Shown here: positions 26,119 to 28,131 of the stretch, in pieces | Position numbering within the stretch: position 1 is the stretch's first letter | Layout: each line of letters opens with the position of its first letter | NCBI RefSeq assembly: GCF_000787855.1 | Contig: NZ_BBPQ01000006.1 | Span: 58,076 to 95,823, forward strand | Reading direction: 5' to 3' | DNA length: 37,748 nt | From: Streptacidiphilus anmyonensis | Lineage (GTDB): Bacteria; Actinomycetota; Actinomycetes; Streptomycetales; Streptomycetaceae | Position numbers and translations under genes: made by a program | Notes under the pieces: generated by a model | Seen by the model: the letters and a program-made list of their open reading frames with translations, nothing else | The model's database searches: none | What the model was told of the DNA's origin: nothing

Positions 26119-26352
26119 ATGCCCGGTTCCACCACCATCGGCCGCACCGAGCGGCTGGTCATGCTGAGCCACCACGACGCAGAGCGCCTCGCCGAGACGA
26201 TGGAGCGCCTGTCGACCATGCTCGCCGCCGACGACGCGGACCGGATGACCGACCCGCAGGTCGCCAAGCTGTGCGGCGGCGACGCCTCGATGCGCGGCGA
26301 CTACGCGCACTGGGCCGCCGAGGTCGGCGCGTTCATCCGCGGCCACCTGTAG
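26119..26352 (+). CDS. Small hypothetical protein
   Basis: A 77-residue soluble, mostly helical-looking protein, rich in Ala, Asp, Met and Arg, with one Cys (AKLCGGD) and a C-terminal YAHWAAEVGAFIRGHL. I do not recognise a family. It is supported by GGAGG 5 bases before ATG 26119, sustained third-position G/C bias, its own likely -10 (26066-26071) and a hairpin after the stop. It is in tandem between the multicopper oxidase and the MetRS leader but each appears to have its own terminator. Confidence 0.6.
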   Translation: MPGSTTIGRTERLVMLSHHDAERLAETMERLSTMLAADDADRMTDPQVAKLCGGDASMRGDYAHWAAEVGAFIRGHL

Positions 26353-26405: not shown

Positions 26406-26458
26406 GGGGACCGCTCGAACCCGGCGAAACCGCAGGGCCCGCAGGCCGCGGGCTCTGC

Positions 26459-26464
26459 TAATCT
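26459..26464 (+). promoter_or_regulatory. Leaderless -10 box of the metG leader transcript
   Basis: TAATCT ends six bases before the leader-peptide ATG at 26471. GCCCGC/GCGGGC around 26437-26453 forms an inverted repeat where the -35 would be; no clear -35 hexamer. Confidence 0.55.
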
Positions 26465-26470
26465 GCGTCC

Positions 26471-26521
26471 ATGATCTCCGCGCCGACCCGTCGAATGATG
26501 CGCCCCTACCGGGGCTGCTGA
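26471..26521 (+). CDS. Leader peptide with Met-Met codons for the MetRS attenuator
   Basis: A 16-codon frame, MISAPTRRMMRPYRGC, ending in TGA at 26519-26521. Codons 9 and 10 (26495-26500) are both ATG, which is a striking density of a rare amino acid just before the first RNA helix at 26502. The start lies six bases behind TAATCT with no ribosome site, so it is read from a leaderless mRNA, as the attenuator model needs a ribosome to start at once. The peptide itself probably has no function beyond its translation: ribosome position at the Met pair decides which downstream helix forms. It ends 98 bases before metG. Confidence 0.75.
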   Translation: MISAPTRRMMRPYRGC

Positions 26522-26566
26522 ACGACGCACGCGCGCGTCCGAGAAGGCCCCGTCCCAGGGGCCTTT
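26501..26566 (+). promoter_or_regulatory. Transcription attenuator of metG (three exclusive helices)
   Basis: Four strands can form three competing helices. 1:2 pairs GCCCC (26502-26506) with GGGGC (26511-26515). 2:3 pairs CGGGGC (26510-26515) with GCCCCG (26547-26552) and is closed inside by a hairpin GACGC/GCGTC (26524-26528 with 26535-26539). 3:4 pairs AAGGCCCC (26544-26551) with GGGGCCTT (26558-26565), a terminator followed by TCGC. A ribosome held at Met codons 26495-26500 would cover strand 1 and free strand 2 to make the antiterminator; a ribosome at the stop codon would cover strand 2 and allow termination. Confidence 0.75.
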
Positions 26567-26619
26567 CGCATGACCGCGAGCCGCAGGCCCCTCCCGCACC
26601 GACGCAGGAGAAGAGCCCG

Positions 26620-28131
26620 ATGAGCTACTACGTCACCACCACCATCCCGTACGTCAACGCCCGCCCGCACCTGGGCTTCGCCCTGGAGCTGGTCCAGGCG
26701 GACGTGCTCGCCCGGCACCGCCGGTCGCGCGGCGTCGCGGTGCGGTTCCTCAGCGGAACGGACGAGAACTCGCTCAAGAACGTGCTCGCGGCCGAGGCCG
26801 AGGGCGTCGCCGTCCAGGACCTCGTCGACCGCAACGCCGCCGCCTTCGCCGAGCTCGCGAAACCGCTCGCGCTCTCCTTCGACGACTTCATCCGCACCAG
26901 CCGCGACCCGCGCCACCGCGCGGGCGTGGCCCACCTCTGGGCGCGCTGCGCCGAGGCCGGCGACTTCTACCGCCAGGCCTACACGGGCCTGTACTGCGTG
27001 GGCTGCGAGGCGTTCTACGGCAGGGACGAGCTCGTCGACGGCCGCTGTCCCGACCACGGGACCGAGCCGCAGGAGGTCAGCGAGGAGAACTGGTTCTTCC
27101 GTCTGTCGCGCTACCAGGAGCAGCTCCGGGAGCTGATCACCAGCGGTGCGCTGCGCGTCGAACCCGTCTCGCGGCGCAACGAGGTGCTGGCGCTCATCGA
27201 CTCCGGCCTGCGGGACTTCTCCGTCTCCCGCAGCCGCGCCCGCGCCCGGGGCTGGGGCATCCCGGTGCCGGGCGACGAGGACCAGGTCGTCTACGTGTGG
27301 TGGGACGCGCTCGGCAACTACGTCACCAGCCTCGGCCTCGGCGGCGAAGGCGACGCCCCGGCGGAGGACTTCCAGCGCTGGTGGGCGGGCGACGGCGAGC
27401 GCGTCCACCTGGTCGGCAAGGGCGTGCTCCGCTTCCACGCCGTCTACTGGCCCGCGATGCTGCTGTCCGCGGGCCTGCCGCTGCCGACGCGGGTGCTCGT
27501 GCACGACTACCTGACGGTGTCCGGCCGGAAGATCAGCAAGTCCGCGGGCGACGTGGTGGACCCCGCCGAGCTGGTCGCCCGCTACGGTACGGACGCGGTG
27601 CGGTGGTGGCTGCTGCGGGAGGTCCCGCGCGTGGGCGACGCGGACTTCACCGAGGAACGGCTGGTCGCCCGCGCGGACGCGGACCTCGCCGACGGCTTCG
27701 GCAACCTGGTCCACCGGGTGGTCACCATGGTCCACCGCTACCGGAACGGCGTCGTCCCGGAAGCCGCGGTGGAGACCACCGCCACCGCCGAGCTCCGCGC
27801 GGTCTGCGCCCGCGCGGCAGGCCGGGTGGACGCGGCCCTCGACGCCTTCGACTACCGGGCGGCGGCTGCGGCGGTCTGGACCCTGGTGGAGGAGGCCAAC
27901 CGCTGCATCGACCGCACCCGCCCGTGGGAACTGGCCAAGTCCGAACGCGGCGGCGCCCGCTCGGCCGCTCTGGACGCCGCGCTGGCCGCCCTGGTCTCCG
28001 CCTGCCGCCAGGTCGGCGAGGAACTGCGCCCGTTCCTCCCGGACGCGGCCGAACGCATCGTCGAGCGGTGCACGCCGGTGGGCGGCGTACTGCCGACGTC
28101 CACCCCGCTCTTCGCCAAGCTGGGGGAGTGA
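26620..28131 (+). CDS. metG: Methionyl-tRNA synthetase
   Basis: Class I synthetase that charges tRNA-Met. The 503-residue protein has the ATP motif HLGF (17-20) in place of HIGH, and KISKS (304-308) in place of KMSKS, both normal variants. A single zinc knuckle is CVGC (126-129) plus CPDH (143-146), so one ligand is His. WWDALGNY (227-234) follows the connective region, and the anticodon-binding helical domain fills 340-500 with RPWELAK. It has no C-terminal tRNA-binding extension. AGGAG lies 9 bases before ATG 26620. A Met leader peptide and attenuator sit directly upstream, so expression should rise when charged tRNA-Met is low. It may be a second, reserve MetRS; no other copy is in view. 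Confidence 0.94.
   Translation: MSYYVTTTIPYVNARPHLGFALELVQADVLARHRRSRGVAVRFLSGTDENSLKNVLAAEAEGVAVQDLVDRNAAAFAELAKPLALSFDDFIRTSRDPRHRAGVAHLWARCAEAGDFYRQAYTGLYCVGCEAFYGRDELVDGRCPDHGTEPQEVSEENWFFRLSRYQEQLRELITSGALRVEPVSRRNEVLALIDSGLRDFSVSRSRARARGWGIPVPGDEDQVVYVWWDALGNYVTSLGLGGEGDAPAEDFQRWWAGDGERVHLVGKGVLRFHAVYWPAMLLSAGLPLPTRVLVHDYLTVSGRKISKSAGDVVDPAELVARYGTDAVRWWLLREVPRVGDADFTEERLVARADADLADGFGNLVHRVVTMVHRYRNGVVPEAAVETTATAELRAVCARAAGRVDAALDAFDYRAAAAAVWTLVEEANRCIDRTRPWELAKSERGGARSAALDAALAALVSACRQVGEELRPFLPDAAERIVERCTPVGGVLPTSTPLFAKLGE

Follow-up and report, generated by a model that had tools for sequence, protein, structure and literature searches.

The metG2 gene of Streptacidiphilus anmyonensis, which codes for an auxiliary methionyl-tRNA synthetase (MetRS), is very probably controlled by a ribosome-mediated transcription attenuator specific for Met-tRNA. 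We analysed a window of 37,748 nts (the whole stretch of DNA under study: assembly GCF_000787855.1, contig NZ_BBPQ01000006.1, positions 58,076–95,823 of the forward strand). Upstream of metG2 it carries a short frame with Met codons positioned next to the first of four strands. The complementarity of these strands is conserved among relatives, including relatives in which the sequence itself has changed.

The leader and the gene behind it

The elements of the leader and the gene are as follows.

26459–26464, forward strand: -10-like box TAATCT of the putative leader promoter, from the sequence (TAnnnT 6–7 bases before the start at 81 of 85 loci)
26471–26521, forward strand: leaderless leader-peptide frame MISAPTRRMMRPYRGC with its stop codon, from the sequence (such a frame in 85 of 86 loci)
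26495–26500, forward strand: tandem Met codons ATGATG, presumed regulatory (ATGATG in 75 of 85 leaders, a single ATG at the same place in 10)
26502–26506, forward strand: strand 1, GCCCC, pairing with strand 2 (alignment and predicted fold)
26510–26515, forward strand: strand 2, CGGGGC, pairing with strand 1 or 3 (alignments and predicted fold)
26524–26528 and 26535–26539, forward strand: inner hairpin GACGC/GCGTC between strands 2 and 3 (predicted fold)
26544–26551, forward strand: strand 3, AAGGCCCC, with GCCCCG at 26547–26552 used for 2:3 (alignments and predicted fold)
26558–26565, forward strand: strand 4, GGGGCCTT, with a short T run (TTT) to 26566; helix 3:4 is terminator-like
26591–26610, forward strand: possible hairpin over the Shine-Dalgarno sequence, CTCC at 26591–26594 with GGAG at 26607–26610 (predicted fold)
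26606–26610, forward strand: Shine-Dalgarno sequence AGGAG of metG2, from the sequence
26620–28131, forward strand: metG2, auxiliary methionyl-tRNA synthetase of 503 residues (TIGR00398, PF09334 and relatives in the PDB)

The leader frame comprises 16 sense codons and a TGA ending at 26521, and its ATG follows TAATCT by six bases. Strand 3 is predicted to form an antiterminator with strand 2 and a terminator with strand 4. Energies calculated with ViennaRNA were -10.5 kcal/mol for 1:2, -22.6 kcal/mol for 2:3 with the inner hairpin and -17.3 kcal/mol for 3:4; the last is a strong hairpin, followed in the window by a T run of only TTT. Relative to the first base of the second ATG, strand 1 begins 4 bases and the GGGG in strand 2 begins 13 bases downstream. 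A preliminary description, made from the letters of the window, had already placed these leader elements, and on re-reading the sequence we found its coordinates correct to the base.

The same description had taken the downstream gene for the metG gene. It is indeed a MetRS gene: its product scored 425.9 bits with TIGR00398 (cut-off 336.35) and also matched PF09334, so that, as in a classical attenuator, the gene belongs to the metabolism of the amino acid encoded in the leader. It is, however, the auxiliary metG2. A second, housekeeping metG with 42% identity to metG2 is present in the same genome; its start looks leaderless (GATACCATTGCGGCATG) and it shows no attenuator. By eye, the Met leader was absent in 7 of 7 regions upstream of the housekeeping metG. 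Among the matches listed, the closest named relatives of metG2 came from Streptacidiphilus species (91–93%). In the larger of two trees, which held no rhizobial proteins, the metG2 clade (including the Saccharomonospora locus L088) was separated from housekeeping MetRS with support of 100/99, while the placement of L088 differed between the two trees.

We further observed that the HIGH motif reads HxGF in 40 of the 50 metG2 proteins of the tree and HLGH in 10, and that HxGF also occurs in four of four rhizobial proteins. KMSKS is replaced by KISKS in 40 of the 50 (in 7 the pattern found no match). HLGH and KMSKS are the motifs of the housekeeping MetRS in the genome of the window. Just 5′ of the leader lies a 77-residue frame (26119–26352) without Pfam match, whose apparent end was also found before metG2 in close relatives. 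An inverted repeat at 26432–26458 (GCAGGGCCCGC ... GCGGGCTCTGC) adjoins the -10 box of the leader and is kept in 4 of the 6 relatives shown, in one of which a change makes the repeat perfect; it could be the terminator of the upstream gene or an operator. The tandem-Met leader together with metG2 was also seen on plasmids of Streptomyces sp. NBC_01558 (L155) and Embleya sp. NBC_00896 (L156). These are large linear replicons, and gene and switch may thus move together.

Conservation of the leader and its helices in actinobacteria

A metG2 orthologue, with at least 62% identity over most of the gene, was present in 15 of 100 genomes, including 7 of the 14 that belong to the same genus; in another genome a 71% match was limited to residues 47–209. 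All 15 orthologues carried the tandem-ATG leader, preceded in 14 cases by a TAnnnT box. Among the best 80 loci of a scan of named genomes, the in-frame tandem-ATG leader was found at 69, and 10 of the other 11 had just one Met codon, at the corresponding place and in the corresponding frame. Adding six further loci, and leaving out nine whole-genome loci (L002–L005, L008–L010, L013 and L014), the leader was present at 85 of 86 metG2 loci from many actinobacterial families, with tandem ATG in 75 and a single in-frame ATG in 10; these loci are related and not independent. The sole case of a metG2 without leader among the 86 was L088, which is outside the counts of frame, stop and pairs given below. 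Alignment of the orthologous upstream regions, which the preliminary description had put forward as a check, thus showed conservation of all three features: short frame, Met codon(s) and alternative pairings.

Of the 85 leaders, 81 have an ATG or GTG preceded at 6 or 7 bases by a TAnnnT box. This start, chosen without regard to frame, shares the reading frame of the Met codon(s) in all 81, which are related sequences. The distance from start to Met codon takes 7 values between 15 and 36 bases, all multiples of three. The remaining four leaders have no box at that distance, yet are also in frame. These sequences point to a short leader frame with cognate codons, as expected of a classical attenuator. 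Residues 5′ of the Met codons are variable, and those 3′ follow the register of strand 1 (MRP, MPR, MAP, MSR). At least one Met is kept whatever that register; some leaders of family f21 read ACC ATG and so retain a single Met. Variable residues on the 5′ side and strand-following residues on the 3′ side speak for Met decoding and against nascent-chain arrest. The first base of the leader stop lies 24 bases from that of the first Met codon in 51 of 85 leaders, as in the window, just behind strand 2. The distance is 12 bases in 17 (as MMPR-stop, in the 1:2 loop) and different in another 17. A ribosome at either of the two common stop positions should cover strand 2.

We then examined the helices in an alignment of 67 of the 83 extracted cores. 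Together, 1:2 and 3:4 were paired in 90.3% of cells. Percent paired, cells changed on both sides and the covariation score each exceeded all 500 shuffles. Five pairs showed double changes, a number reached by 39 of 500 shuffles, and the number of types was reached by 121 of 500. With partners slid by +3 the covariation score was 0.103 against 0.082, with just 46.5% of cells paired. The 2:3 helix was paired in 96.3% of cells, or 87.5% with the inner hairpin included, which is variable in relatives (69.3% of cells paired). None of its pairs showed a double change in the 67 sequences, only percent paired exceeded all shuffles, and a slide of -1 gave more double-changed cells in this analysis (16 against 9). 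Covariation is modest since the core strands are nearly invariant within actinobacteria; strands 2 and 3 hardly vary because each has two partners. Alignments and predicted fold agree on three helices, 1:2, 2:3 and 3:4, that would be mutually exclusive.

A covariance model of the leader gave 59.5 bits at the window locus, itself one of the training sequences, and 20.3 bits at the next place in the same genome. At E ≤ 0.001, 89 of 394 genomes of the class matched the model, many of them weakly. At the 29 loci examined besides that of the window (L116–L144), a metG2 relative was detected by blastp in 17, in L141 over 24 residues only; L130 showed one on reading the sequence and the remaining 11 had none. 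All 11 matches of at least 31.4 bits in the 394 genomes precede metG2; the training set had included at least two of these 11, the window and L116. When 296 genomes sampled from the phylum were searched, the eight new loci examined (L157–L164) had no metG2 relative by tblastn; the best of them scored 31.1 bits, which is the noise level.

Known RNA classes were also considered for the window. A T-box riboswitch was rejected, since nothing in the window matched an Rfam model at gathering scores. A SAM riboswitch was likewise rejected, with no match to an Rfam SAM family in the window or, at E up to 10, in 26440–26640. This last search returned two matches in all, both weak and neither a T-box.

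Relatives in rhizobia and phages

MetRS genes 48–56% identical to metG2 were found on rhizobial plasmids. In 7 of 9 such records (L153, L154 and L165–L169) the gene is preceded by a short frame with three consecutive Met codons (MMM), for example MNRSLANATMMMPRS followed by a stop; the leader of L169 is that of L154, which leaves 6 distinct leaders. In L153 the strands read CCGCGC, GCGTGGCGG, ACCGCC and GGCGGT, rather than CCCC and GGGG, and again permit 1:2, 2:3 and 3:4. The rhizobial leaders also have a hairpin between strands 2 and 3. A run of 5–6 T follows strand 4 in 5 of the 7 records and is missing in L166 and L168. The lowest-energy fold of the complete stretch of L167 differs from the four-strand design. 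In the other two records, plasmids of Rhizobium sp. T1473 (L170) and T1470 (L171), the match to metG2 runs from residue 88 on and the three-Met leader is absent; the start of the gene appears to be lost.

Four of the six rhizobial proteins were included in a tree (L166 and L167 were left out), where they grouped with the metG2 clade at 99% bootstrap, separately from the leaderless MetRS relatives. For four MetRS genes 52–54% identical to metG2 (L016–L019), on a branch outside the metG2 clade, no leader was seen. Three of these (L017, L018 and L019; 52% identity) begin immediately where an upstream frame containing CxxC motifs ends, and therefore look operonic. MetRS-like genes occurred in 16 phage records; the five phage enzymes among the matches listed (Listeria, Microcystis and human gut phages) were 37.5–41.3% identical to metG2. 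A relative of the rhizobial type was sought in viral contigs and none was found.

Changed strand letters with unchanged logic are, on comparison of the sequences, the strongest evidence for the mechanism. The Met-codon attenuator originally suggested for the window thus gains support both from the leader at 85 of 86 loci and from the same logic in other letters in distant relatives.

Proposed mechanism, alternatives and known systems

The frame, the position of its codons and the four strands, complementary and conserved even where letters have changed, are observed in the sequences; from this arrangement we infer translation of the leader, stalling, termination, the response and the benefit to the cell. 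Transcription would start at or beside the leader ATG, as suggested by the fixed spacing of 6–7 bases to the -10 box. With ample Met-tRNA, a ribosome would pass both Met codons, reach the stop and cover strand 2; strands 3 and 4 would then pair and RNA polymerase would terminate. When elongator Met-tRNA is short, either because Met is lacking or because the housekeeping MetRS is inhibited, the ribosome would stall with an ATG in the A site. It would cover strand 1 and end before or at the edge of strand 2, so that 2:3 could pair before strand 4 is made and metG2 would be transcribed. A ribosome reaches about 12 bases beyond the first base of the codon in its A site. With the first ATG in that site, strand 2 is therefore clear of the ribosome; with the second it is only just clear, the edge of the ribosome then coinciding with the beginning of strand 2. 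The geometry previously proposed, a stalled ribosome masking strand 1 and leaving strand 2 accessible, holds with this narrow clearance at the second ATG.

Several points weigh against the scheme, among them the short T run of the window, the modest covariation, the narrow clearance at the second ATG and L088 with its metG2 lacking the leader. In addition, until strand 4 is made, 2:3 (-22.6 kcal/mol) is more stable than 1:2 (-10.5 kcal/mol), so the off state needs kinetics or a stop-bound ribosome. Moreover, initiation on the leader needs fMet-tRNA, made from the same amino acid, and deep starvation should thus silence the sensor. The response should accordingly be non-monotonic: on at moderate shortage, off at extreme shortage.

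The switch might instead be mainly translational, leader translation gating the ribosome-binding site of metG2 through the Shine-Dalgarno hairpin, with 3:4 as only one component of the rearrangement. A CGGAGCCCC-like element is predicted in many relatives to pair with the Shine-Dalgarno region (GGAGGTTCCG), and this hairpin recurs with sequence changed on both sides. Among 63 representatives, own partners gave stronger pairing than swapped ones in 48 (-14.85 against -13.30 kcal/mol; 0 of 20000 permutations as good), and in a set of 60 own partners paired at -15.81 against -11.49 for shuffled ones. A GGAGCCC or GGCCC-like element occurred in 49 of 85 tails, compared with a mean of 18.2 in 200 shuffles; the tail alignment comprised 45 of 60 tail references. 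Against this reading, folded tails were hardly more stable than shuffles (mean z -0.36, 85 tails) and the hairpin of the window itself is weak (tail fold z +1.26). Freeing strand 4 did not significantly expose the Shine-Dalgarno sequence in the predicted ensemble: exposure rose from 0.234 to 0.271 at 60 loci (p 0.16), and a shuffled strand 4 gave 0.270. The 4:5 swap test (p 0.034) was no clearer than the 4:6 control (p 0.043). Swap and exposure tests thus gave no support to a five-strand model with the Shine-Dalgarno hairpin opened by a free strand 4, and comparative support is limited to the hairpin itself. We consider a mainly translational switch unlikely.

Nascent-chain arrest, or sensing of a ribosome-targeting antibiotic with the Met codons incidental, has precedents. 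In E. coli, a regulatory uORF responds to several classes of antibiotic (PMC12121999), and S. lincolnensis is described as having a ribosome-mediated antibiotic signal (PMC8546547). However, only the Met codon(s), the frame and the closeness to strand 1 are kept in the leaders while other residues vary, and the controlled gene encodes MetRS, which makes this explanation quite improbable. Less probable still is a small frame serving reinitiation or coupling, with hairpins acting as a constitutive terminator and a linker: bacteria, actinobacteria among them, have been proposed to use reinitiation at leader genes (PMC4833913), but this reading leaves unexplained, in two phyla, both the in-frame Met codons abutting strand 1 and a strand 2 complementary to strands 1 and 3, and the window has a gap of 98 bases between the stop of the leader and the start of metG2.

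Returning to the Met-tRNA attenuator, its retention with one clade of auxiliary MetRS in two phyla raises the possibility, which we hold only tentatively, that these enzymes are inducible stand-ins for a poisoned or starved housekeeping MetRS. Streptococcus pneumoniae reportedly has two distinct MetRS genes with different inhibitor sensitivity (a finding attributed to Gentry, 2003), which fits this idea for metG2. If it were true, natural MetRS inhibitors in soil, so far unknown, would be implied, and the leader would offer a handle for finding them. With the attenuator, an entire clade of second MetRS genes would be marked as probably inducible, and actinobacteria and rhizobia would have a natural candidate sensor of Met-tRNA charging. 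Methionine and MetRS would join the attenuators controlling synthetase genes. It also raises the question of how an attenuator works if initiation on its own leader depends on the amino acid sensed.

The closest parallel is in S. coelicolor, where an auxiliary, antibiotic-resistant TrpRS gene (indolmycin) is reported to be under ribosome-mediated attenuation. Like metG2, it combines an actinomycete auxiliary synthetase, a leader with cognate codons and attenuation; it differs in using Trp instead of Met. Candidate classical attenuators of leuS and trpS in Streptomyces similarly place a cognate-codon leader peptide, an antiterminator and a terminator before a synthetase gene, for other amino acids, and the same survey reports no conserved RNA structure before methionine operons (PMC1262725). 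A Met-specific T-box riboswitch is predicted for metS of Bacillus cereus (PMC3771891). It also senses tRNA-Met charging and controls MetRS or Met genes, but it binds uncharged tRNA directly, whereas metG2 has a putatively translated leader without match to a T-box model.

The preliminary description knew of no Met-type attenuator before a metG gene in this group. The kind as such has precedents. In S. lividans TK24 a Met-containing, leaderless peptide, metL, has been proposed as leader of metNIQ, hence likewise before a methionine gene set. It differs from the metG2 leader by its 29 residues (MSTTSDRTPATEATTTPGARCMCRRMCAF), non-adjacent Met codons, lack of a typical terminator and a transporter instead of MetRS as target (PMC8079986). 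For MetRS itself, our search of open-licence PMC papers found no report of a MetRS attenuator, and the accessible text of a review of duplicated synthetases does not contain the terms MetRS or methionyl (PMC9437257). The metG2 leader gains weight from how deeply it is conserved, from its recoded counterpart in a second phylum and from a hint of an inducible spare MetRS.
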